NCBI GenBank assembly: GCA_016873115.1
Contig: VGYB01000001.1
Coordinates: forward strand, 1 to 64,000
Source: Planctomycetota bacterium
GTDB lineage: Bacteria; Planctomycetota; Phycisphaerae; Phycisphaerales; SM1A02
DNA length: 64,000 bases
Direction: 5' to 3'
Shown here: positions 1-22,312 of the stretch, one piece after another
How positions within the stretch are numbered: the stretch's first letter is position 1
Layout of the letters: the number at the start of each line of letters is the position of its first letter
Notes under the pieces: model-generated
Seen by the model: only the letters and a program-made list of their open reading frames with translations
Database searches by the model: none
What the model was told of the DNA's origin: nothing
Made by a program: the position numbers and the translations under genes

Positions 1-519
1 CGTGGCCGGCAGGAATCCGTAGCGCTCGCTGTCGCCGCCGACGAACGCGCTGTTCATGCCGAACGCGGGATAGAGGCTCGTGAAGTAGTAGAACTCGGCA
101 GGGTCGCCGTTCACCAGCTCCTCGAAAGTCTCGCTCGCGCCGCCGAGAAAGAGACCCCGCATGTCGAACGAGAGGTAGGGCGCGAGCCGCCACGGCCAGC
201 GGGCCGCGATCGTCGGTCCACCACCGAAGGCATCGGCAGGCATGTGTTCGTCGCTGGCCACCCACGCCGGCAAGCCGGTCTTGAAGCCCGGCAGAACCTG
301 CCCCTGCGCATCCGTGGCGTACCCCGTCCAGGCTGCAAAGATCGAGCGGCCCGAGGCCACCTCGCGTGATTTCCGGGCCACGGCCTGCACGGTCCTGATG
401 GCCGGGAGCAGCAGGGCCAGGATCAGGGCGAGGAGGCCGATCACGACGAGCAACTCCGTCAGCGAGAATCCTCTGGGATTCGCCGGGCGGAGGCTTGCTG
501 GGGATCGGGGAAACGCCAT
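1..519 (-). CDS. Prepilin-type exported protein, C-terminus beyond window
   Basis: The reverse strand is open from an ATG at 519 to the window edge (173 codons seen). The N-terminus has a class III signal: a short basic leader ending RG, then FSLTELLVV and a hydrophobic helix rich in Leu and Ile, as in pseudopilins cleaved by prepilin peptidase. The soluble part starts near residue 45, is rich in aromatic residues and Gly, and resembles planctomycete prepilin-like (DUF1559 / H-X9-DG type) proteins. That subfamily is not proven because the C-terminus is missing. It is divergent from the exported protein at 543, with only 23 bases between starts. It lies far from the pilus locus at 22-36 kb but would use the same peptidase. 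Confidence 0.8.
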   Translation of the reverse strand, partial: MAFPRSPASLRPANPRGFSLTELLVVIGLLALILALLLPAIRTVQAVARKSREVASGRSIFAAWTGYATDAQGQVLPGFKTGLPAWVASDEHMPADAFGGGPTIAARWPWRLAPYLSFDMRGLFLGGASETFEELVNGDPAEFYYFTSLYPAFGMNSAFVGGDSERYGFLPAT

Positions 520-542
520 GCTTCGTGCCTAGGCTCCATCGT

Positions 543-1586
543 ATGCCCCTGCGACCCACGACATGCATCGCGATCGCCCTTGCAGCCACGCTGCCCGCGG
601 TGTCGCCCACGCTTGCCCAGACGACCAACGGCACCTGGACCATGCCAACGCTCGACCGTTGGATGTATCCCTTCAACACCTCGCCCGGTTCGCGGCCGGT
701 CATCAGTGTCTTTGGCTCGGATGCCAACGACCCGAACACCTTCGACAGCCGCGATGGCCAGTTCCTTGTGGGGTGGTCGACGGCGGACCAGATCCCCACG
801 GGTACGCCAGCAGGATCCGTGACCCTGCAGGCCGCCTCGGTCGAGGTCGAGTTCGCCAATGACCTCCTCGTGCAGTACGACCCGACGCAGGATCCTTGGC
901 AGATCTTCGCGCCCACCGCGAGTCCCGACTGGCAGGCTGACAGCGATCCCGGCCAGAGCATCGAACTTCACGGCGCGGGTTTCCGCAACGGCTTCACGGC
1001 AGCGACCTTCCAGGAGTTCTCGCCCTTTGCCCCCGGCGGCACGAACCTCATGGCCCCCAGCGTGCGCTCGGCCTACGCCATGTCCTTCAACGCCGCAGGC
1101 CAGGCCATCGACATCAGCAACAACCCCCGCGAGCGATTCAATCCCAAGGCCTTCGCCATCGGACAGTGCGCCACGCTCCAGCCAGGCGACTTCATCCCCG
1201 TCGGCACGCGCATGAACTTCGATCTGGATGTCGACGATCCGAACATCCGCCAGTATGTGCTCGATGGTCTCGCCGCAGGCAAGTTGCTCTTCACGATCTC
1301 CAGCCTGAGCTTCGTGGTCCAGCAAGGTGGGAACTTTCCCGCGTTCTATGCCAAGGAGAATGCACTGGTGACCATCGGTGCAGCGACGGCCGCGCAGTTG
1401 CGGGTCACGGTGACGATCACGCCTGCGTGCGCACCGGCCGATCTTGACTGCAATCAACGCGTGGATGGTGCCGACCTGGGCCTGCTCCTGAGCAACTGGG
1501 GCGGCGCTGGGTCAGGCGACATCGATGGCAACGGACATATCGACGGCGCAGACCTGGGCACCCTGCTCAGTTCATGGACGGGCTGA
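543..1586 (+). CDS. Exported protein with C-terminal dockerin-like repeats
   Basis: A 347-residue protein. I chose the ATG at 543 because it begins a normal Sec signal peptide (MPLRPTTC, hydrophobic core, cleavage after TLAQ); an upstream in-frame TTG at 495 would add a non-signal extension. The body (residues 30-295) is not recognised. The last 50 residues hold two copies of a calcium-loop repeat (D-x-N/D-x-D-G followed by GADLGxLLSxW), like dockerin type I modules. Similar tails occur on the proteins at 19030 and 21174. In planctomycetes such tails are common and their partner is unknown. The protein is secreted or surface located; no enzymatic motif is visible. Confidence 0.8.
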   Translation: MPLRPTTCIAIALAATLPAVSPTLAQTTNGTWTMPTLDRWMYPFNTSPGSRPVISVFGSDANDPNTFDSRDGQFLVGWSTADQIPTGTPAGSVTLQAASVEVEFANDLLVQYDPTQDPWQIFAPTASPDWQADSDPGQSIELHGAGFRNGFTAATFQEFSPFAPGGTNLMAPSVRSAYAMSFNAAGQAIDISNNPRERFNPKAFAIGQCATLQPGDFIPVGTRMNFDLDVDDPNIRQYVLDGLAAGKLLFTISSLSFVVQQGGNFPAFYAKENALVTIGAATAAQLRVTVTITPACAPADLDCNQRVDGADLGLLLSNWGGAGSGDIDGNGHIDGADLGTLLSSWTG

Positions 1587-8598: not shown

Positions 8599-10722
8599 AT
8601 GGCACGCGCGGCTGAGCAGAGTGAGATCGTCGGGACCATCCGCACCCAACTTGAGGAACTCTCCCGCGACCTGTGGTGGACCTGGAATCCCGACGGCAGG
8701 GTCCCCTTCGAGATGCTCGACCCCGTGCTCTGGCGCGCCACCAAGCAGTCGCCGATGCAGGTGCTCGATGGCGTCACGGACGAGCGCATCGCCCTGTGTG
8801 CCAGGGATGACCGTTTCCTGGACGCTCTGGCCAAGGCAGGACGATCGCTGGAGACCTACCACGATGCCGCCACATGGTGGGGCCGCGGTGCGAAGGGGGA
8901 CCTGAAGTCGCTGCGCGTCGCCTACTTCTGCAGCGAGTACGCCGTACATGAGAGCATGCAGCAGTACGCGGGCGGCCTCGGCGTCCTGGCGGGCGACCAC
9001 CTCAAGAGCGCCAGTGACCTCGGCATCAGCCTTTGCGCGGTCGGGCTCCTCTACCGACAGGGCTACTACCTGCAGGAGCTCGCCGAGGATGGCTCCACGC
9101 GCGTCTACTGCCCCGAATACGACTTCGACCGCATGCCGGTCGAGGACACGGGCGAGATCATCGTGTGCCCCGTCGGCTCGAGCCGCGTGAAGGCCAAGGT
9201 CTGGTCAATGAAGGTCGGCCGATCGACCGTCTACCTCCTCGACAGCGATGTCACGGGCAACAGCGACAAGGACCGTGAACTCACTCGCGGGCTCTACCGC
9301 GGCGAGCCGTCGCTGCGCCTGCGCCAGCAGGTGCTGCTGGGCGTGGGCGGCTGCATCGCGCTGCAGCATCTCGATGAGCCGGTGACCGTCTATCACCTCA
9401 ACGAGGGCCACGCCGCGTTCGTGGCGTACCAGCGCATCGCACAGCTCGTCAAGGACGGCATGAAGCCCGCCGACGCGAAGGCCCATGTCAAGGCCACCAC
9501 GGTCTTCACCACGCACACGCCGGTGCCTGCGGGACACGACCGCTACGGCGTCGAGGAGGCTTACGAAGCCCTGCGCCCGGTGCTGCGCCAGGCGCGCATC
9601 GAAGAGGACGAGTTCGCAGCGCTCGGTCGTGAGCGGCCCGATGACTTCCGCGAGCCCATCTGCATGACGGCGATCTGCCTGCGGTTCGCCTCGCGCATCA
9701 ACGGCGTGAGCCAGCTCCACGGTGAGGTCAGCCGCGACATGTGGACGAAGGTCTTTGGCTGCGCCCCCAAGGATGTGCCGATCGGCAGCATCACCAACGG
9801 CGTGCATGCGCGCACCTGGATCGATCCCGACGCGGAGGCGTTCTGGCGCAAGGAGATCAACCTGCGGCTGGACCGCCACACCCCCACCATGGACGGCTGG
9901 GAACTGGCTCTGGGCGTCGATCGCTCGCGCTTCTGGGCGCTGCGCAGCCGATTGCGTGCGCGCCTGGTGCACTTCATCCGCGAGCGGCTCGCTCGCCAGG
10001 CGCTTCGCCGAGGCGAAGGCTCCGCCGGCGTGAACGCGGCCATGCAGGCGTTCTCGCCTGACACGCTCACCATCGGCTTCGCGCGTCGCTTCGCCACCTA
10101 CAAGCGCGCACCGCTCATCTTCCAGGATCTCGAGCGTCTAAGGTCGATCCTCAATGACCCGCGGCGCCCGGTGCAACTGGTCTTCGCAGGCAAGGCCCAC
10201 CCGCGTGATCTCCCGGGCCAGGAGTACGCGCAGCGGATCCACGAGCTCTGCAAGCAGGATGGCCTCTGCGGCAAGGTCGCGCTCATCGAGGAATACGACA
10301 TGGAGGTCGGCCGCATGCTGACCGCGGGAAGCGATGTATGGCTCAACAACCCCCTGCGCCCCTACGAGGCCAGCGGCACCAGCGGCATGAAGCCGCCGAT
10401 GCATGGTGGCATCAACTGCTCGATCCTCGACGGCTGGTGGCCCGAGAGTTTCGACGGGCGCAACGGCTGGGCGATCGGCGACACGCAGCCGATGCAGGAC
10501 CGCGAGGCACAGGACCGCAAGGACTCGCAGTCGCTCTACTCGATCATCGAAGGCGAGATGCGCCGCGAGTTCTACGACCGCGACGGCACCGGTCTGCCGC
10601 AACGCTGGATCGATCGCGCCCTGCAGAGCGCCGCCACGGTGCCACCGATGTTCAACACGCACCGCATGCTCGCGGAGTACCTGCGCGAGGCCTACATCCC
10701 TGCCCACCGCGGCGGGCTTTGA
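8599..10722 (+). CDS. glgP: Alpha-glucan (glycogen/maltodextrin) phosphorylase
   Basis: A 707-residue GT35 phosphorylase that releases glucose-1-phosphate from alpha-1,4-glucans. The N-terminus (LEELSRDLWWTWNPDG) is the DUF3417-type domain of the short bacterial class, followed by VAYFCSEYAVHESMQQYAGGLGVLAGDH. Further marks are YHLNEGHAAF, TTHTPVPAGHDRY and FARRFATYKRAPLI. The PLP-binding Lys is expected in EASGTSGMKPPMHGG near residue 597. AAGGA lies five bases before the ATG, and TATCAT at 8570-8575 could be a -10 element with no good -35. It is convergent with malQ, with which it would process imported or stored maltodextrins. Confidence 0.95.
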   Translation: MARAAEQSEIVGTIRTQLEELSRDLWWTWNPDGRVPFEMLDPVLWRATKQSPMQVLDGVTDERIALCARDDRFLDALAKAGRSLETYHDAATWWGRGAKGDLKSLRVAYFCSEYAVHESMQQYAGGLGVLAGDHLKSASDLGISLCAVGLLYRQGYYLQELAEDGSTRVYCPEYDFDRMPVEDTGEIIVCPVGSSRVKAKVWSMKVGRSTVYLLDSDVTGNSDKDRELTRGLYRGEPSLRLRQQVLLGVGGCIALQHLDEPVTVYHLNEGHAAFVAYQRIAQLVKDGMKPADAKAHVKATTVFTTHTPVPAGHDRYGVEEAYEALRPVLRQARIEEDEFAALGRERPDDFREPICMTAICLRFASRINGVSQLHGEVSRDMWTKVFGCAPKDVPIGSITNGVHARTWIDPDAEAFWRKEINLRLDRHTPTMDGWELALGVDRSRFWALRSRLRARLVHFIRERLARQALRRGEGSAGVNAAMQAFSPDTLTIGFARRFATYKRAPLIFQDLERLRSILNDPRRPVQLVFAGKAHPRDLPGQEYAQRIHELCKQDGLCGKVALIEEYDMEVGRMLTAGSDVWLNNPLRPYEASGTSGMKPPMHGGINCSILDGWWPESFDGRNGWAIGDTQPMQDREAQDRKDSQSLYSIIEGEMRREFYDRDGTGLPQRWIDRALQSAATVPPMFNTHRMLAEYLREAYIPAHRGGL

Positions 10723-10735: not shown

Positions 10736-12157
10736 TCAGCGCGCGCCCGCACGCGCGCGACCGGTCAGCACCGCGAGCGCACGGAGTCGAGCGGCCGCAT
10801 CCGGGCGAAGGCTCGCAGCGCCTCGCGACTGCAAGCGCCAGTGCCAGTTGCCACGGGCCGTGCCGGGCAGGTTCATGCGCGCCCTGGCACCCAGGCCGAG
10901 CGCATCCTGCATCGCCACGATCGCCGTGTTCGCCGGGCTCGTGAAGGCCAGCCGGTTGAGCTGCGCCGCCGGATCGGATCCATTCCAACCCATGTAGGCA
11001 CGCGCGCGCGCCTTCGCGGCAGGCTGCAACCGTGCCCACCACCCGACCGTCGTGTCGTTGTCGTGGGTGCCGGGGTAGCACACGCAGTGCCGCGGGTGGC
11101 GATGCGGCGCTTCGCCCGAATCATCACCGCAGAACGCGTTGTGCAGGAGCTTCATCCCCGGCAGGCCGAACTCGTCGCGCAGCGCCACGACCGGCGGCGT
11201 GAGCGCACCCAGGTCCTCGGCGATGAGCGGCAGGCTGCCGAGCGCGCGCTCGATCGCACCGAGCAGTTCACGACCGGGTGCGCGTTTCCAGGTCCCCTGC
11301 CGTGCCGTCTTCGCCGAGCCCGGGACCTCGTACGCATGGAAGAACCCGATGAAGTGGTCGATGCGCACGGCGTCGAATCGCTCGACCGCTGCGCGGACGC
11401 GCTCGATCCACCACCGATACCCGGTCCGCCGATGCTCGCTCCATCGGTAGTGCGGGTGCCCCCAGAGTTGCCCGTCGGCGCTGAAGCCATCGGGTGGCAC
11501 ACCGGTCACGACCGTCGGATGACCGTGTCGATCAAGCCGGAAGAGCGACGGATTCGACTGCACATCGGCGGAGTCGAGCGGGACGAAGATCGGCAGGTCG
11601 CCGAGCAGCCGGATGCCCCTTGCCGCAGCGGCCTGCTTGAGCTCGGTCCACTGGGCATCGAAGGTGAACTGCAGGAACGCATGCAGCCCGTGTTCGTCCT
11701 TCATGAATGTGCGCCAGCCCGGCAGCCAGAAGCGCTGCCGCCGTTCGAACGCCTTGAAGGACGAGGAGCGCAGCCCACCCTTGCGCCGGAATGCCTCGAA
11801 CGCCCGCTCGAACCACGGCCACTTGGCCGCGCGGGCCGCGGCGTACCGGCTCGGGCCACGGGCCAGTGCAGGAGCCGCACGCAGCGCCGACCGCGGCAGC
11901 AGTCGATCGCGCACCAAGCCATCGATCGAGATGAAGAGCGGTTCGCCGGCGAACGAACTCGTGCTCGCATACGGCGAGTCGCCAGGGCCGATCGGACCCA
12001 CCGGGAGCATCTGCCACCAGGTCAAGCCGGTGCGCGCCATCCACGCGAGTGCGTCGTGTGCACCGGGCCCCATGTCACCCACACCGAACGCACCGGGCAC
12101 GCTCGACAGGTGCAGCAGCACGCCACCTGTCCGCGCGGCGAAGATCGATGGCATCAT
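10736..12157 (-). CDS. malQ: 4-alpha-glucanotransferase (amylomaltase)
   Basis: A 473-residue GH77 enzyme that transfers maltosyl units between alpha-1,4-glucans. Family landmarks: GGVLLHLSSVPGAFGVGDMG at the start, the PVGPIGPGDSPYASTSSFAG loop, RLLGDLPIFV, the nucleophile Asp in AVRIDHFIGF, the acid/base Glu in PLIAEDLGALTP, and the third acid in YPGTHDNDT. I chose the ATG at 12157 because it overlaps the stop of the upstream amylase as ATGA; the frame stays open to 12370 only as a shadow of that gene. It probably supplies longer chains to the convergent phosphorylase. Confidence 0.95.
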   Translation of the reverse strand: MMPSIFAARTGGVLLHLSSVPGAFGVGDMGPGAHDALAWMARTGLTWWQMLPVGPIGPGDSPYASTSSFAGEPLFISIDGLVRDRLLPRSALRAAPALARGPSRYAAARAAKWPWFERAFEAFRRKGGLRSSSFKAFERRQRFWLPGWRTFMKDEHGLHAFLQFTFDAQWTELKQAAAARGIRLLGDLPIFVPLDSADVQSNPSLFRLDRHGHPTVVTGVPPDGFSADGQLWGHPHYRWSEHRRTGYRWWIERVRAAVERFDAVRIDHFIGFFHAYEVPGSAKTARQGTWKRAPGRELLGAIERALGSLPLIAEDLGALTPPVVALRDEFGLPGMKLLHNAFCGDDSGEAPHRHPRHCVCYPGTHDNDTTVGWWARLQPAAKARARAYMGWNGSDPAAQLNRLAFTSPANTAIVAMQDALGLGARARMNLPGTARGNWHWRLQSRGAASLRPDAAARLRALAVLTGRARAGAR

Positions 12158-14550
12158 CGCGCCTGCCTCCAGACCCGCGCACCGACAGCGGGGATCGAGA
12201 TCGCGTCGATCGAGCGGCCATCGATGGATGGATCGCTGTCGAACACGAGCTCCCATGCACCCCGTACATGGTCGCCGAATGCCGCATCCGGTGCCGCCCG
12301 CTGCACGCGACCCGATCCATTCACGACAACCAGCAGCCGCTCGGAGCCATCCTCGCGCAGCCAGCCCCACAGATCGCGCTCGTCATCCACGAGCACCGTG
12401 GTGAACGAACCGGTGCGCAGGGCCGGATGGGCATTCCTCAGTGCGATCACCCGCTGGTACCAACTGAACTGCTGCGCATCGACTGCATCCTCGGCCAGTG
12501 CATAGGGCTCAAGGTCCGTCCACAGCATCGGCTTGCGGTTGGTGGGGTCGTCGGCTCCGTACATGCCGACCTCATCGCCGTAATAGACCATCGGTGCACC
12601 AGGATGGGTCATCTGGATCAGCGCGGCCAGCCGCATGCGCGCGTACTCCGCGGCTCCTGGCTTCGTACCCAGGTACGACGCGTTCTCCTGCTCGCGACTG
12701 CCGGTCTTGAAGGCGAGATCGCGGTTCAGGAGCATGCTCGCCAATCGATCGGTGTCGTGGCTGTCGTACAGGTTCTGCGCAACGTAGGTGACCTGATCCG
12801 CGTAGGAACGCCGCAACTCGGCGAGCCTGCCATCCATCTCGCTCACGGGAATCGCCTCCTTGCCCTTCGCGATCCACGGCAGCACGGCCTTCGCGAACGG
12901 ATAGTTCATGAGCGCATCGAAGCAGCGGCCATCGACCCACTCCGGCTCGACCGTCCAGATCTCGCCCACGATGTACGCCTGCGGATTGATCGATCGAACA
13001 TGCGCACACCACTCGCGCCAGAAGCCGATCGGTATCTCTTGCGGGACATCGAGCCGCCAGCCATCCACGCCATCACTCGGGTCGCCATCACCATCGGGAT
13101 CCATCCATCGCCGCGTCAGGTCCATCAGGTGCTTGCGCAGCGATGCGCTCGCCAAACCGTCCTTGTCCTTGCGGAAGGCCGGCAACTCCCCGAAGCCCCC
13201 CCAACCCTGGTACACGAACGGCTCCCACGAGGTGATCTCGAACCAGTCCGCGAAGCGGCTCGCCTTGCCCTTCGCCTGCACATCCCTGAAGGCCGGGTGG
13301 CCGGTGCCCACGTGGTTGAAGACGCCGTCGATGATGACCCGCATGCCCATCGATTTCGCTTCCTTGAGGAACTCGAGGAAGAGCCGATCGGACGGCGTCC
13401 AGGTCCACGTCGATGGATCGAGCAGGTCCTCCTTCGCCTCGGCCACGGCGTAATCGCCCTTCACGCCGAAGTGCTCATCGACATGAAGGTGGTTCATGGT
13501 GTCGTACTTGTGGGCCGTGCGCGCCTGGAAGATCGGGTTGAGGTAGATCGCATTGATCCCCAGCGACTTCAGGTAGGGCAGCGCCCAGCGCAGCCCCTGC
13601 AGATCGCCGCCGTACTTGCGCGAGAACACGAAGTGGTTGAAGAAGGTCTGGCCATCCTTCCCTTCCCACTCGCTCGGCTCGTACCACGAGCTACGCCACG
13701 GCCGCACGGGCTGCGGGTCGTTCGCCGCATCGCCGTTGCGGAAGCGTTCAGGAAAGACCTGGTACCAGATCGCGTGCTTGGCCCAGTCAGGCGTGGAGAA
13801 GGTCGGCGCGGGTGCCAGCGAATAGGTCATGGGATCTCGTACGGTCATGGTTCCATCGGTGAAGAGAAAGGTGTACTGCGTTCCGCGTGGTGCCGTCAGG
13901 CAGCCTGACCACCAGGCGAAGGCGCCTCGAGTCGTCTCGGGCGAAAGGTCGATCCAGTCCACGCCATCGGCGGCCACGCGCACGCGCTCCACATCGTGTG
14001 CCAAGGTACGCACGCGCAACCGGACGCTGCCATCGGCGAGCGCGCTGGCACCCAAGAGGGTCCTCGGATCGTGGAGGATCGCGGCTGCCTCGATGCGGCC
14101 ATCGCCGCGCACCCCGTGCGCCGACTGCAGCGCGGCCTGCGCGCCCAGTCTCAGCACCGAATTGAATCCGCCGTACCCATCGGGCTCACGGTCATCATTC
14201 GCCGGATCGGCAATCCACTCGGAACGGCCGCCGCGTGACTGCACGAACTTGTAGCGCACCGTGCCGTCGACACCGATGCGCGCACGCCACACGCCATCGG
14301 GGCCGCGCTGCATCGGGATGGCCGTCGCATTCCAGCGATTGAAGTCCCCCGCCACGGTCATCGAGTCCACGGGCGCACGCGGCCGGTACGACAGCTCGAC
14401 CTCCCACACACCGTCGGGTCTGCGCTTGGCATCGATCGACTTCGGCAGGCTCGGCGCAGCGACCTCACTCGTGGCCATCGGCACCTGCGGCGGGAATGGC
14501 GGAGTCACCATGCCGCAGCCGAGAGCGATGATGAACGACCGTGGGTGCAT
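12154..14550 (-). CDS. GH13 alpha-amylase/neopullulanase-type lipoprotein with N-terminal starch-binding domain
   Basis: A 798-residue enzyme. The N-terminus FIIALGCGM contains a lipobox, so it is likely a lipid-anchored envelope protein. Residues 45-105 look like a CBM48/AMPK-type glucan-binding domain (MTVAGDFNRWN). The GH13 barrel follows with region I VIIDGVFNHVG, the nucleophile Asp in DGWRLDVPQEI, the acid/base Glu in YIVGEIW, and the third acid in YDSHDTDR. It would cut starch or maltodextrins outside the cytoplasm to feed the divergent ABC importer. AGGA precedes the ATG. Only 22 bases separate its start from that of the importer fusion gene, so promoters must lie inside the opposing coding sequences. 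Confidence 0.9.
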   Translation of the reverse strand: MHPRSFIIALGCGMVTPPFPPQVPMATSEVAAPSLPKSIDAKRRPDGVWEVELSYRPRAPVDSMTVAGDFNRWNATAIPMQRGPDGVWRARIGVDGTVRYKFVQSRGGRSEWIADPANDDREPDGYGGFNSVLRLGAQAALQSAHGVRGDGRIEAAAILHDPRTLLGASALADGSVRLRVRTLAHDVERVRVAADGVDWIDLSPETTRGAFAWWSGCLTAPRGTQYTFLFTDGTMTVRDPMTYSLAPAPTFSTPDWAKHAIWYQVFPERFRNGDAANDPQPVRPWRSSWYEPSEWEGKDGQTFFNHFVFSRKYGGDLQGLRWALPYLKSLGINAIYLNPIFQARTAHKYDTMNHLHVDEHFGVKGDYAVAEAKEDLLDPSTWTWTPSDRLFLEFLKEAKSMGMRVIIDGVFNHVGTGHPAFRDVQAKGKASRFADWFEITSWEPFVYQGWGGFGELPAFRKDKDGLASASLRKHLMDLTRRWMDPDGDGDPSDGVDGWRLDVPQEIPIGFWREWCAHVRSINPQAYIVGEIWTVEPEWVDGRCFDALMNYPFAKAVLPWIAKGKEAIPVSEMDGRLAELRRSYADQVTYVAQNLYDSHDTDRLASMLLNRDLAFKTGSREQENASYLGTKPGAAEYARMRLAALIQMTHPGAPMVYYGDEVGMYGADDPTNRKPMLWTDLEPYALAEDAVDAQQFSWYQRVIALRNAHPALRTGSFTTVLVDDERDLWGWLREDGSERLLVVVNGSGRVQRAAPDAAFGDHVRGAWELVFDSDPSIDGRSIDAISIPAVGARVWRQAR

Positions 14551-14572
14551 GCGGGGTTCCTATACTAGATCG

Positions 14573-17008
14573 ATGCTCCGCCGTGGTCGCACGAGTCCTG
14601 GCTCATGGCTGCGCCGCGGGGCCATGACCGTCGTCGGACTCGTCATCGCGTGGGCGTTCCTCCATGTCGCCGTGCGCGAATGGGACCGCGCTGGCGGCGC
14701 CGACGGCCGTACCGAACTGATCGTCATGCACTGGTCCGGCGACGGCGGCCAGGAAGAGGACCAGATCGTCGATGCGAGCCTGCGCGCCTTCGAGCAAGCC
14801 AACCCCGGCATCCGGGTTCGCCGCGTCAACCCCGGCGATGCCGGGAGCTTCTACACCAAGCTGATGACGATGCTCGCCGCCGGCGAACCACCGGATGTCT
14901 TCTATGTCGGCAACGAGCGCGTACCGAGCTTCGCGGACATCGGGCTCATCCGGCCGCTCGAGCCGTTTCTGGAGGCGGACCGCGCAGCCGGCGATCCAAC
15001 GGCCATCGATCTGGCAGACTTCTTCCCTGCGACCGTCGACGCCTTTCGCTTCGACGGCGCGACGAGCGGCAAGGGCGCGCTCTACGGGATTCCCAAGGAT
15101 TTCACGACCGTCGGCTTCTACCTGAACCTCGATCTCTTCGAGCGCGCGGGCGTGGCCGTGCCCGGGAACGATTGGACCTGGGACGACTTCCTCGCGGCGG
15201 CCCGCGCCATCGGCCGGCTCCCCGATGCCACCGGCAGCGAGTTCGTGACATGGGCGGCGATGCTGCGCGCCTACCTCATGACCGAGGGCGTCGATGTGAA
15301 GGGTGCCGACTTTGACCAGATCACGATCGAGGATCCGCGTGCCGTCGCAGCACTCGAACGCCTGCGCGCCTGGCGCCACGACGAGGACAACACGCTCACG
15401 AGCGGCAAGAGCAAGATCGCCACCGGTTCGAGCGTCTTCCTCTCGGGCAAGGTGGGCATGGCGGGTCCGTTCGGTCGCTGGGTCGTACCCAGCTACCGCA
15501 AGATCCCCCCGGCAGGGACACCCGGCGGGTTCCGATGGGACTTCCGCCCCCTGCCGCGCGGCGCGGTCGCCTCCAACATCGTGCTCACGGTCTCCTGGAG
15601 CATCGCCTCGCGCAGCAAGCACCCCGACGAGGCCTGGAAGCTCGTGAAGTGGATGACCGATGACCGCAGCCAGCGTGACTTGGCGAGGCTCGGGTTGGCG
15701 ATCCCCACGCGCAAGGCCGCGGCGATGGGACCGGAGTTCAGCGATCCCACCCAGGAGCCCGCGAACGATGCGGGCTATCTCCTCGCCGCCGAGCGGGCGC
15801 AGGTCGTGGAGTGGCCGGTCAATCCGCAGTTCGAATCGCTCTTCGCCAGCACGATGGATGCCGCGCTCAAGACCGGCACGATCAGCGTGCGCGAGGCGAT
15901 CGACACCTTCCTGCGCGACTGGCGGAGCGAGAGCCAGTCGCCCCTGGCGAAGGCCGACCTCGCGCCGATGCCGTGGCGGAACCTGGCCACGATCGGGTTC
16001 ACCATGGCCGCCGGTGCGGCCGCATGGTTCGTATGGTGGGCGCGCCGATCACGGGCCACGCAGGCCCATCGCAGCGAGGAACGCGCGGGCTGGCTGCTTG
16101 CCTCGCCGTGGGTCATCGGCTTCCTGGCATTCATGGCGTTCCCCGTCGTGATGAGCCTCTTGCTCTCGCTTGCACGCTGGAAGGGCGTGAGCACGCTCGA
16201 GGAAGCGGAGTTCGCCGGCTTGGCCAACTACGAGCGCCTGCTCACCGACGACGCACGGTTGCGGACCTCGCTGCGCGTCACGCTGTACTACGCGCTCATT
16301 GCGGTACCGCTGGGACAGGCGATCGCGCTTGGCGCCGCGATGCTCATGAACCTCAAGGTTCGCGGCATCGCGCTCTGGCGCGCAGCGTGGTACCTCCCGA
16401 GCGTCCTTGCGGGTGTCGGCGTGAGTGTCCTCTGGCGCTGGGTGTTCGATCCCGACGGCGGCCTCATGAACCGCATGCTCGGTGCCGTCATCGGGGCGAC
16501 GGATGCCGTGCTGGCGTGGTTCGGCGCCGGCCCGACCGGCCTCGTCCCACCGGAGTGGTTCGAGGCCGACGCCGCCGTGTGGGGCGCACCGGCCTTCGCC
16601 ATCATGAGCTTCTGGTTCATGGGCGGCACGATGATGGTCTACCTCGCCGGCCTGCAGCAGGTACCGGCCGATCTGCACGAAGCCGCCTCGATCGATGGTG
16701 CCGGTCGCCTGCGCCGATTCGTCAGCGTGACGCTGCCGATGCTCAGCCCCGTCATCCTCTTCAATGTGATCATGGCGGTCATCGGCAGCTTCCAGGTCTT
16801 CACGCAGGCGTTCGTGATGACCGGCGGCGACCCCAACAACCTCACGCGCTTCTATGTGCTCTACCTGTACAACCAGGCCTTCGAGTTCTACGAGATGGGC
16901 TATGCGAGCGCGATGGCGTGGCTGCTCCTGGCCATCGTGCTCGTCCTGACGGTGATCCTCATGCGCACGAGCGCGCGCTTGGTCCATCACGAGGGGGCAC
17001 CTCGATGA
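14573..17008 (+). CDS. ABC sugar importer: binding protein fused to MalF-type permease
   Basis: An 811-residue fusion. Residues 15-34 form a signal-anchor helix. Residues 47-455 look like a CUT1 solute-binding protein ([55 protein letters not shown]). A helix at about 467-488 follows, and then a six-helix MalF-type permease ([20 protein letters not shown]) whose ATPase-contact EAA loop [15 protein letters not shown] lies near residue 702. The binding protein would thus be tethered at both ends in the membrane. I chose the ATG at 14573 because it starts the anchor helix. The stop overlaps the next permease gene by ATGA. Maltodextrin is inferred as substrate from the neighbouring glucan enzymes. 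Confidence 0.9.
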
Positions 17009-17865
17009 CCTGGCTCCGCCCCTGGTTGCAGTCCGCCCTGCTTGCCGCAGGCTCGGTCGTCTTCCTCTTCCCGCTCTGGTGGATGGTGGTCGTGAGCCTC
17101 GAGACCCCCAAGCGCGCCGGTGCGGCCATGACGGGCCAGGATGGCGTGGCGCTGTGGCCCGCCGATCCGCAGTGGGGCAACTACGCCGAGGCGCTTGCCG
17201 AGATGGGCAGCGTGCCGTGGGTCGGGTTCGTCAACGCGCTGGCGAATTCCATCGTGGTGACCACGCTGGTCGTGATCGGCACCGTGCTCAGCAGCAGCCT
17301 GGTCGGCTTCGCCTTCGCGCGCCTGCGCTGGCGCGGACGCGGGGCGCTCTTCACGCTGATGCTCGCCACGATGATGCTTCCCGGGCAGGTCACGCTGATC
17401 CCGCTCTTTCTCCTCTTCCGTGGCCTGGGCTGGATCGACACGATCCTGCCGCTCGCGGTGCCGGCCTTCTTCGGCAACGCCTTCTTCATCTTCATGTACC
17501 GGCAGTTCATCCTGCAGGTCCCGGAGAGCCTCGTCGAGGCCGCCAAGGTCGACGGGCAGGGATGGCTGGGCATCTGGTGGACCGTGATCCTGCCGCTGTG
17601 CCGCCCGGTCACGGCGATCTGCGCGGTCTTCACCTTCATCGGGACCTGGAACGACTTCATGGGTCCGCTCGTCTACCTGCACGCGGAGGAGCAGTCCACG
17701 CTCGCCGTTGCACTCAACAGCTTCCGCAACCAGTACGGCGGGCTCGACGATGTGCACCTGCTCATGGCGGCGAGCCTCGTCACCATGCTCCCCTGCATCC
17801 TTCTCTTCATCGCGGCCCAGCGGCAGTTCGTCGAAGGACTCGCCCGCGGCGCCGTCAAGGGCTGA
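17005..17865 (+). CDS. ABC sugar importer, MalG-type permease
   Basis: A 286-residue inner-membrane protein with about six helices. The EAA loop [21 protein letters not shown] (given in part) lies near residue 180 and docks the ATPase. The C-terminus ([15 protein letters not shown]) is typical of the MalG branch of CUT1 importers. It overlaps the fused binding-protein/MalF gene by ATGA and ends 14 bases before the ATPase gene, so the three form one transport operon. The pairing fits the usual two different permease subunits with a homodimeric ATPase. Confidence 0.93.
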
Positions 17866-17879
17866 CACGAAAGGCAATC

Positions 17880-19004
<1,125 letters not shown>

Positions 19005-19029: not shown

Positions 19030-21066
19030 TCAACTGCCCCAGGCGCTCAGCAGCATGCCGAGGTCGGATCCATCGACGATGCCCGACTGGTTGATGTCAC
19101 CCAAGCCGCTGCCGCCCCAGTTGCCCAAGAGGATGCCGAGGTCGCCGCCATTGACGGTCCCCGATCCATCGAGATCGGCGGGGTTGCCCGACGGCGGAGG
19201 GGAGGTGCAGGTTCCCTGCGTGAAGATCGCGCAGGAGTAGGCCCCCAAGCTGATCAGGCCGCTCTGGCCCAGACCATCCCACGGTACGCCGTTGCCTTCG
19301 GTGTCGAAGCATGGGTGATTGGCGTAGTCGCTGCCATACCCCGGCCAGTCACCGTTGAAGACGCAGCGCCAGAGGCCCGGCCGCGGCAGGCCGATGCGGT
19401 AGTTCGAGATCGGGTTGGTGCTGAAGTTGAAGACCACGACCACATCGTCACCAAGACCGCCGTTCTGCCAGCGGTGCATGCCGAGCACCTTGTTGAAGTT
19501 GTTCAGGTGGAACAGGTTGGTGTTCTGTCCCGACAGGCCCTCGGTGCACATGAGATCATTCTTGCGCAGCTTGATCAGGTCGGTGTAGTGGCGAAGCGTG
19601 CCGGCGTAGGTGGTCGCCTTGCTCCAGTCGAGCGGATCACTGTCCTGGAACCAGCCATCCTCGAGGAACTCCTGCCCTTGGAACAGCATGGGGATGCCCG
19701 GGCTCGTCATCACGATCGCACCACCCAGCATCGAGCGCTTGCGGCTGAACCAGCTGCCCGGGTTGCTCGGCCAGATCTCGCTCGGCATGCGCTGCTGGCC
19801 GTTGGCGACTTCATCATGGCTCTCGGTGTAGATGATCCGCTGCTCGATCTGCCCGTTGTAGCTGTACAGGATCGCATCCTTGACCGCGAACATGTTGCGG
19901 TCGGCATCGTTGGATGTGATCAGGTTGCCCCGGATGCTCGGGAAGAAGCCAGCATCCCACTGGCTGTCGAAGCCGGCACCGCCCTCGCCCGTCGTCTTGC
20001 CGATCCACTGATTCAGATCCAGATCCTCGGCGAACATGAACTTCCAGGGCTGCGCGGCATCGACCGAGTCGTTGATCCACTGCAGGAGCGACCAGCCTTC
20101 TGGAATGTCCACGCCGTTCTGGTCGGTGCGTCGGATGTACTTCGTGCCGTCCATGCGGAGGCCGTCCATCCGGAACTCCTCCAGCCACATCATGCAGTTG
20201 TCCTTGATGTACGTGCGCACCTCGTCGCGCGTGTAATCGGGACGCGTGTTCCCCCACGGCGTGTTGAGACGGAAATCGTTGAAGAAGTAACTGCCGCCGC
20301 CGGTGCCTGAGTACCAGTGGTCGAAGCGCCACAGGTCCATGTCATTGGGGCCAAGATGGTTGAAGACCACATCACCCATCACGGCGATGCCGCGGGAGTG
20401 CGCGTCGTCGATGAAACCCTTCAGGTCGTTGGGGGTTCCATAGGCACTCTCAATGCTGTACGGGTACGAGGGGTTGTAGCCCCACGAGTAGTCGCCGGGG
20501 AACTCATTGATGGGCATGAGCGCGATGGCGTTCACGCCCAGGTCCTTGAGATGCTGCAGTTTCTGGCGCGCGTTGGCAAAGTTCCCGGGCACCCCCGCGG
20601 TGGGCGCGAAGAACGCACCTGGGTGCATCTCGTACATCACGAGCTTGCGCCAAAGGGGCATCGTGAACTGGTGCTGCCATGTGTATGTGGCGGGGTTGTA
20701 GATCACGGAGTCACCGACCGAGCTCGTCAGGTCGCGCGCCCGAGGGTCGTTTCGCCACGCAGAGTTGGTCCCGCGCTTGACGAAGAACTTGTAGCGCTGG
20801 CCGGCCGTCACGAAGGCCACATCGCCACTCCAGTAGCCATTGAACTCGTTGCCGAGCTGATACTGCGTCGAGTTCCACCCGTTGAAGGTGCCACCGACAG
20901 CAACGCTGTCTGCGAAGGGCGCGAAGACGCGGAACGTCGTTCCGTACTGGCCGTCCACGGAGTACGGAATGGCACCCACCCCGGGTCGCGTGGACGGAGG
21001 GATTGCCATCGCTGATGCCGTGAGCGCGACCGCGCCGACGACGGCCAAGCAGGTCCCAAACTTCAT
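19030..21066 (-). CDS. Secreted GH13 glucan enzyme (branching-enzyme-like) with dockerin-like tail
   Basis: A 678-residue exported enzyme. The Sec signal starts MKFGTCLAVVGAVALTASAMA. Residues 35-110 resemble a CBM48 domain (SVAVGGTFNGWNSTQY). The GH13 barrel has region I GDVVFNHLGPND, the nucleophile in DGLRMDGTKYI, the acid/base Glu in FMFAEDLD, and region IV YTESHDEVANG. NHLGP and SHDEV favour the glycogen-branching-enzyme branch, unusual for a secreted protein. The last 50 residues carry two dockerin-like repeats (PADLDGSGTVNGGDLGILL). The ATG at 21066 starts the signal peptide. It is convergent with the importer ATPase (25 bases apart) and may act on extracellular starch. Confidence 0.9.
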   Translation of the reverse strand: MKFGTCLAVVGAVALTASAMAIPPSTRPGVGAIPYSVDGQYGTTFRVFAPFADSVAVGGTFNGWNSTQYQLGNEFNGYWSGDVAFVTAGQRYKFFVKRGTNSAWRNDPRARDLTSSVGDSVIYNPATYTWQHQFTMPLWRKLVMYEMHPGAFFAPTAGVPGNFANARQKLQHLKDLGVNAIALMPINEFPGDYSWGYNPSYPYSIESAYGTPNDLKGFIDDAHSRGIAVMGDVVFNHLGPNDMDLWRFDHWYSGTGGGSYFFNDFRLNTPWGNTRPDYTRDEVRTYIKDNCMMWLEEFRMDGLRMDGTKYIRRTDQNGVDIPEGWSLLQWINDSVDAAQPWKFMFAEDLDLNQWIGKTTGEGGAGFDSQWDAGFFPSIRGNLITSNDADRNMFAVKDAILYSYNGQIEQRIIYTESHDEVANGQQRMPSEIWPSNPGSWFSRKRSMLGGAIVMTSPGIPMLFQGQEFLEDGWFQDSDPLDWSKATTYAGTLRHYTDLIKLRKNDLMCTEGLSGQNTNLFHLNNFNKVLGMHRWQNGGLGDDVVVVFNFSTNPISNYRIGLPRPGLWRCVFNGDWPGYGSDYANHPCFDTEGNGVPWDGLGQSGLISLGAYSCAIFTQGTCTSPPPSGNPADLDGSGTVNGGDLGILLGNWGGSGLGDINQSGIVDGSDLGMLLSAWGS

Positions 21067-21112
21067 GGAAGGGAGTCTAGGTCGAGGTGCGCGACATGCC
21101 ACTCATCGTGCA

Positions 21113-21173: not shown

Positions 21174-22199
21174 TCAGGGCTGGCATGGTCCCCATGCTGC
21201 GAGCATGGCACCCAGATCGCTCCCGCCGACCGAACCGTCTCCATCGAGGTCGGGGGACGAGCCGCCCCAACCGGCGAGCAGAACGCCAAGGTCGGCGCCG
21301 CCGATGTCACCGTCGCCATCGAGGTCGGCCGGGCACGGATTGCCACCACCGCCCGCCGACACCGTCACGAACTGCAGGCCGGGGATGGCCTCGAAGTTCA
21401 CCAAGCGCGGCTCGGCCAGATTCGGGCAGCCGTTGCAGCCACCGGTGAACTGGTTCGACAAGTAGTCGTGGTTGCCGCCGTTGATCATCGCCACGACCTT
21501 GATGTCGCCCGTGCCGGAGTAACCCATGATGTTCAGCGGGATCTTCACTTCGACGCCAGTGCCACAGCCCGAGCCGCTGCCGGTGGTCGTTGTGGAGTCG
21601 TACGCCGGCACGCCAGCAGTGTTGCTGTTGTTGGTCGCAATCTCGACACCTTCCTGGCTCACGATGGGAGAACCCGGGGCAGCGTTGCCGATGTACACGC
21701 CCGAGCCGCCACCATTCGTCAGCATCTGCGCCATGTTGGCATAGCACGTGACCGGGTCACCGCCGATGGTCGTGGTCACATAGAAGTCGGCCTCGAAGCC
21801 GGCGTCGAAGGTCAGGCCTGGGTTGTTGGTATCGGTGCCCATGCGGTTCAGGCCGTTGTAATCGACATCGGGGTTGTCGCCGCGCACCGTGTTCTGCCCA
21901 CCGGGGGCGCAGTCGATGAAGAGCTCGAACTTGTTGAAGTTCGATTCCAGGTTGCCGCCAAAGAACAGATAGAGGAATCCACCCTGCACATCAAGCGCCG
22001 CGTGCATGTTGTTGAGTTCGCTGCCGTTGCACTGCCCAACCTGGCCATTGGTCGCGTTGCCGAACTGTGTCGCGGTGTTCTGCGCCCAAAGTTCGGGGAG
22101 GGCGGGTTCGGCATCCAGGGTGCCGTCGATCGCGGGAAGCTGCGCATGGGCCGAAGCCGCACAACCAAGGGCGGCAACCAAATGGATGAATGTCTTCAC
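21174..22199 (-). CDS. Exported protein with C-terminal dockerin-like repeats
   Basis: A 341-residue exported protein. I chose a GTG at 22199 because GGAG lies about eight bases upstream and it opens a Sec signal ending SAHAQ. The body starts LPAIDGTLDAEPALPELWA, like the carbohydrate-binding/DOMON-type family-9 domains that begin with an IDGxxD motif, and contains paired Cys. That family assignment is tentative. The C-terminal 50 residues hold two calcium-loop repeats (PADLDGDGDIGGADLGVLL and PDLDGDGSVGGSDLGAML), nearly the same as in the secreted GH13 enzyme. A strong terminator follows the stop. Confidence 0.85.
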   Translation of the reverse strand: MKTFIHLVAALGCAASAHAQLPAIDGTLDAEPALPELWAQNTATQFGNATNGQVGQCNGSELNNMHAALDVQGGFLYLFFGGNLESNFNKFELFIDCAPGGQNTVRGDNPDVDYNGLNRMGTDTNNPGLTFDAGFEADFYVTTTIGGDPVTCYANMAQMLTNGGGSGVYIGNAAPGSPIVSQEGVEIATNNSNTAGVPAYDSTTTTGSGSGCGTGVEVKIPLNIMGYSGTGDIKVVAMINGGNHDYLSNQFTGGCNGCPNLAEPRLVNFEAIPGLQFVTVSAGGGGNPCPADLDGDGDIGGADLGVLLAGWGGSSPDLDGDGSVGGSDLGAMLAAWGPCQP

Positions 22200-22284
22200 G
22201 GTTTGATCTCCACTGGATGACCAGTCACGACGAACGATCGACACCAGGCACGATGCCCCGGAGTCCCGACTTGACCAATGTCGA

Positions 22285-22312
22285 AGGATAGACCCGGACA
22301 CTCACTCGGCAA
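22285..22312 (-). promoter_or_regulatory. Weak candidate promoter for the exported dockerin-tailed gene
   Basis: On the minus strand TTGCCG (22307-22312) and TATCCT (22285-22290) are 16 bases apart, giving a leader of about 80 bases before the GTG at 22199. Both boxes depart from consensus, and planctomycete promoters are poorly known. The rest of the gap 22200-22463 shows no gene; it holds one copy of a 22-base sequence that recurs at 31442. Confidence 0.25.

Follow-up and report, generated by a model that had tools for sequence, protein, structure and literature searches.

A sugar-binding protein and a CUT1 permease share one polypeptide in a putative alpha-glucan importer of a freshwater planctomycete

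Introduction

A gene at 14573-17008 (+) of the window, as we call the whole 64,000-nucleotide stretch of freshwater planctomycete DNA analysed here, raises the question of whether a sugar importer can work with its binding protein built into the permease. Standard sugar importers depend on having free binding protein in large excess. Standard CUT1 systems are made of four separate gene products (PMC11212667), and in the maltose system of E. coli the solute-binding protein (SBP) is present in 30-50-fold excess (PMC9045158). A sequence-only reading of the window had proposed that this gene joins an SBP and a MalF-type permease in one chain. We asked whether the fusion is real, how the chain would be laid in the membrane, what it is likely to import and how widely such fusions occur.

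Results

A binding protein and a permease share one open frame

As the sequence-only reading had claimed, the gene encodes a single 811-residue polypeptide made of an SBP and a CUT1 permease; the frame, Pfam, phmmer and AlphaFold2 agree. In the family-database search, SBP_bac_1 (residues 64-367, E 1.6e-36), SBP_bac_8 (71-392, E 2.1e-30) and BPD_transp_1 (625-797, E 8.2e-11) all exceeded the curated Pfam cut-offs. Residues 57-403 match solved sugar-binding proteins by phmmer, and residues 495-798 match the solved CUT1 permeases 7cad_A and SugA 8ja7_A. The AlphaFold2 model (mean pLDDT 77.8) begins with a helix at 9-41, which is followed by a two-lobed SBP (about 46-455), a second helix at 468-492 and then the permease helices. 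The N-terminal helix and the linking helix described earlier are thus present, as they are in the alignment. Superposition of residues 45-456 on Lmo0181 gave a Z score of 43.5 and an rmsd of 2.4 A over 382 residues, which, with the Pfam and phmmer matches, confirms the N-terminal half as a binding protein. The EAA loop of the permease, also noted earlier, is intact, and E703, A704, D708, T720, P722 and L724 are invariant among the 39 sequences aligned. The coordinates are collected in Table 1.

Table 1. Features of the fused gene and its surroundings in the window
Feature	Position	Strand	Evidence or remark
Alpha-glucan (glycogen) phosphorylase	8599..10722	+	Phosphorylase and DUF3417
GH77 4-alpha-glucanotransferase	10736..12370	-	6.5e-136
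Divergent GH13 neopullulanase/cyclomaltodextrinase-like enzyme	12154..14550	-	Alpha-amylase 6.9e-47, CBM_48
TATACT, -10-like hexamer	14561..14566	+	ends 6 nt upstream of fused-gene ATG
Fused SBP-permease, 811 aa	14573..17008	+	translation without stop, Pfam, family-wide frames, AlphaFold2
N-terminal anchor helix, about residues 17-41	14621..14695	+	conserved WAFxxVxxR, R35 invariant
Extracytoplasmic sugar-binding domain, about residues 46-455	14708..15937	+	Pfam SBP_bac_1; superposition on Lmo0181
Short linker with conserved SPL...MPW, residues 456-467	15938..15973	+	alignment
Connector membrane helix, residues 468-492, sequence poorly conserved	15974..16048	+	AlphaFold2 and alignment
CUT1 permease domain, residues 504-806, EAA loop at 703-722	16082..16990	+	BPD_transp_1; UgpA/SugA-like
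Second CUT1 permease, MalG/UgpE type	17005..17865	+	BPD_transp_1 1.1e-17; UgpE 116.7 bits
CUT1 ATPase, UgpC/MalK type with TOBE domain	17880..19004	+	ABC_tran, TOBE_2; NCBIfam PRK11650
GH13 alpha-amylase/branching-enzyme-like protein	19030..21102	-	signal-like N-terminus, dockerin-like C-terminal repeats

A sequencing or assembly error might have fused two adjacent genes, given that the order SBP-then-permease is common and that split relatives are present in the same family. A frameshift near 15960 was checked and excluded: the frame is open there in the window and in the relatives whose contig spans the junction. All eight same-genus relatives compared have the fused gene, 90-94% identical (contig ends cut three of them), and more distant genomes retain it at 40-64% identity. 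Of the 181 genomes of the family, 98 carry the fused frame, and so do 20 of its 45 genera, with no internal stop among the matches listed. About 80 genomes of the order have near full-length matches. When 392 genomes were sampled evenly across the phylum, 29 had a match at E <= 1e-105, including some from families far from that of the window. Independent genomes, 40-93% identical, repeat the same stop-free frame together with an added connector helix, which rules out a frameshift or assembly artefact and leaves an error only a negligible chance. The joining of a CUT1 SBP and the first CUT1 permease in a single real polypeptide is therefore confirmed.

Three details of the alignments stand beside this. 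A short insertion at permease residues ~632-655 (~16466-16537) is shared by the window and a genus mate and is missing from most other aligned relatives. One full-length fused copy (G271:C134:7226-9580) has an in-frame TGA, either from decay or from a sequencing error. Two genomes, G010 (L020 and L145) and G138, bear the fused importer plus a split paralogue, a natural pair for comparison.

The fused chain has the partners of a CUT1 importer

A separate second permease and an ATPase lie downstream, in line with the earlier description. The start codon of the second permease and the stop codon of the fused gene overlap (ATGA), and the ATPase scored 432.3 bits against the NCBIfam model PRK11650 (UgpC; cut-off 432). 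With regard to CUT1 membership, we found two different permease chains with BPD_transp_1 in both, a conserved EAA loop in the fused chain, a MalK/UgpC-type ATPase with a C-terminal TOBE domain, and a sugar-binding part of the SBP_bac_1 type. The one departure is that the SBP has no gene of its own and shares a frame with the permease. One SBP per permease, as had been supposed, follows from both being on the same chain.

The label "MalF-type" stood only in part. CUT1 affinity holds, but the permease part scored 87 bits with UgpA and 85-92 bits with SugA-type chains, against 44-47 bits with MalF, and the MalF_P2 domain (PF14785), detected in the E. coli control, had no match in the window's own genome.

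We also searched that genome (95.9% complete) for a free sugar-binding protein that could serve the fused permease, and found none. The fused protein holds the sole strong SBP_bac_1 domain. Two weaker SBP_bac_1 matches were considered as separate SBPs and set aside, both also matching SBP_bac_6/SBP_bac_11. A free SBP might still be encoded in the missing part of the genome.

A conserved anchor helix and a variable connector

About 5 residues separate the anchor helix from the binding domain, and about 13 separate the C-terminal end of that domain from the connector helix. A hydrophobic segment occupies the connector position in all 53 fused proteins examined; in the split relatives the permeases have short N-terminal extensions and the SBPs are encoded by separate genes. 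The connector helix is needed because the binding domain finishes outside and the permease starts inside.

The two helices differ in conservation. In 39 sequences, the anchor positions R35 (100%), V32 (97%), F29 (92%) and W27 (90%) are strongly conserved, and mean entropy is 1.72 bits in the anchor helix, 2.45 bits in the connector helix and 2.32 in the cytoplasmic loop after the connector. A conserved anchor next to a variable connector argues against a cleaved signal peptide. These alignments suggest that the anchor is kept as a functional helix and that the connector serves as a passive bridge.

Alternatively, the chain may be cut after insertion, either in the linker (456-467) or after the N-terminal helix, and a free or singly tethered SBP would then work as in a standard CUT1 system. 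The linker is indeed conserved in the same 39 sequences (S456 85%, P457 92%, L458 92%, then W468 100%), and its motif SPL...MPW could be a processing site. Moreover, the N-terminus of more distant fused families, judged by eye, resembles an ordinary cleavable signal peptide. However, the N-terminal helix of the window clade is itself conserved and followed by an invariant Arg, and cleavage in the linker would not free the binding domain, which that helix would still hold. We know of no protease site for cleavage of the fused chain in the linker or at the N-terminus, and consider such a cut quite improbable. An uncut, doubly anchored chain is the reading that we follow below.

Neighbouring genes point to alpha-glucan oligosaccharides

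The maltodextrin-type context proposed earlier was borne out in the genomes compared. A GH13 neopullulanase-type gene adjoins the fused gene in all 24 neighbourhoods, from several families, divergent in the window clade and co-directional in the f5/f6 family loci. Most of the 24 neighbourhoods, and most of those in the window clade, also have GH77 and glycogen-phosphorylase genes close by. The GH13 alpha-amylase/branching-enzyme-like gene occurs in part of the neighbourhoods compared; the protein of the window may possibly act in extracellular glucan processing. The second permease is downstream of the fused gene in every neighbourhood (n=24). Several neighbourhoods are without an ATPase gene nearby, so a shared ATPase is likely there.

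The binding domain itself gives a mixed picture. Its predicted fold comes closest to that of a cycloalternan (alpha-glucan)-binding protein, and several malto-oligosaccharide-binding proteins also rank high; beta-1,2-glucan-binding proteins superpose well too. Its best sequence relative is the arabino-oligosaccharide-binding protein AbnE (phmmer, E 3.6e-26), and for this reason the assignment of the cargo rests mainly on the neighbours. The AbnE match and the beta-1,2-glucan superpositions would both suit an importer of another sugar (arabino-, beta-gluco- or mixed oligosaccharides) that stands beside alpha-glucan genes incidentally. Such an importer is unlikely in view of the nearest fold and of the GH13 neighbour conserved in several families, with GH77 and phosphorylase at most loci. 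The conserved neighbours support alpha-1,4-glucan oligosaccharides, and alpha-glucan oligosaccharides are the likely cargo.

Some further features of the locus were noticed. In the window's genus (window, L036, L038) the glycogen phosphorylase gene has the opposite orientation to that in the other families compared. Among the relatives with the divergent layout, most have a counterpart of the -10-like hexamer in Table 1, of the TANNNT type (TATACT, TATGCT, TATTCT, TATAGT and similar), about 12-16 nt before an in-frame start; the f5/f6 clade, which has a same-strand GH13 gene upstream, mostly lacks it. Because the hexamer is so close to the start, a leaderless transcript of the fused gene is predicted. 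Three putative secreted proteins, encoded at 495-1586 (+), 19030-21102 (-) and 21174-22301 (-), end in dockerin-like repeats that read DLDG...VxGxDLGxLLxxWG. One of the three is a GH13 enzyme, and the repeats are possibly a shared surface or sorting tag.

Fusions of this kind extend through and beyond the phylum

The architecture had been thought to look uncommon. This did not hold: it is carried by more than half of the family's genomes, and comparable CUT1 fusions of binding protein and permease were seen in other Planctomycetota families and in Verrucomicrobiota-type genomes. Planctomycetota fusions of ~860-990 aa have related permeases and remote binding domains (L138-L142, L166, L167); the 809-aa L168 resembles them. 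L143 (787 aa) and L174 represent further types, again combining related permeases with very different binding domains. Fusions of ~920-1000 aa are found in Lentisphaerota, Kiritimatiellota and Verrucomicrobiota (L092, L094, L095, L097, L100, L180-L185). A model of this last group matched 62 of 240 sampled genomes of the Verrucomicrobiota/Kiritimatiellota-type phylum, mostly as single open frames; in this group the match to the permease domain falls into two parts, as though interrupted by an insertion. Among plasmid records, matches reached only <60% identity, and where the listed ones carry annotated features, binding protein and permease are encoded by different genes. We found no description of SBP-permease fusions of PVC bacteria in the literature searched.

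A permease tree of 103 rows needs 5 changes between fused and split states, of which the starred branches force only 1, with the positions of the Verrucomicrobiota-type clade and L143 unsure on their long branches. A single origin for the two largest Planctomycetota groups of fusions, imposed as a constraint, was not rejected (p-AU 0.203). The tree thus suggests, at most, more than one fusion event. Tentatively, and with some doubt, we suggest that CUT1 importers of Planctomycetota and Verrucomicrobiota-type bacteria may repeatedly have become machines with one covalent receptor, in which related permeases were kept with differing binding domains; the window lineage would be doubly anchored, its N-terminal helix working rather than serving as a signal sequence.

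Discussion

We are fairly confident that the locus encodes a CUT1-type ABC importer for alpha-1,4-glucan oligosaccharides whose sugar-binding domain lies within the first permease chain, with one SBP acting in cis per complex. The N-terminal helix would anchor the chain with the binding domain outside the membrane, and the connector helix would return it to the inner side. There the permease part would pair with the second permease, which is a chain of its own, and with two copies of the ATPase, giving a predicted single binding domain per complex. The tethered domain would bind sugar, close and dock on its own permease, and ATP would drive the transfer of the sugar. The local concentration raised by the tether may stand in for the large excess of free SBP, and uptake kinetics would change accordingly, as had been supposed earlier. 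By our own estimate, a tether of ~5 nm would give some millimolar, close to the level of free binding protein in the periplasm of E. coli; for OpuA, the local concentration of the tethered domains is comparable to millimolar free SBP (PMC11065425).

A widespread lineage that would fix one receptor per transporter, and whose family includes both fused and split members, offers natural pairs, and these could show what the excess of free SBP serves. There is also a warning for annotation, since labels such as "permease" or "binding protein" cover half of these ~800-1000-residue chains.

Compared with known systems, the importer resembles E. coli MalEFGK2 in its CUT1 layout, alpha-glucan context and EAA loop, but MalE is separate there, and MalF has a P2 domain that was absent in the search of the window's genome. 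The closest solved permease chains are of the SugA type (LpqY-SugABC), and the closest NCBIfam models are UgpA, UgpE and UgpC (UgpBAEC); in both systems, unlike here, the binding protein is a separate gene product. GlnPQ and OpuA likewise have binding domains covalently joined to the membrane subunit; the connection in OpuA consists of a short linker plus a membrane anchor (PMC11065425). They differ in belonging to other SBP and permease families and in having a homodimeric membrane part with two or four substrate-binding domains (SBDs), whereas the window importer would carry one SBD on a heterodimer.

A fused MalE-MalF maltose/maltodextrin importer, probably from Bdellovibrio bacteriovorus and with a binding domain that we take to be PDB 6FFL, has reportedly been characterised by Licht et al. 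2019 (Res Microbiol 170:1-12). As far as the accessible part of that publication goes, it too has a single maltose-type solute-binding domain joined to the first CUT1 permease, the specificity of the window domain being suggested by its neighbours. PDB 6FFL is titled "Maltose/maltodextrin transport permease homologue", yet its 388-residue chain matches the SBP part. The window SBP matches it only remotely (phmmer, E 3.7e-4 over residues 64-145) and, if 6FFL is indeed the domain of that importer, is only a distant relative, so the two fusions probably arose separately. An architecture known, in the accessible sources, from one published maltose importer is thus common across a whole bacterial group. 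The kind of fusion is already on record, and the window protein is a new and probably independent member of it.
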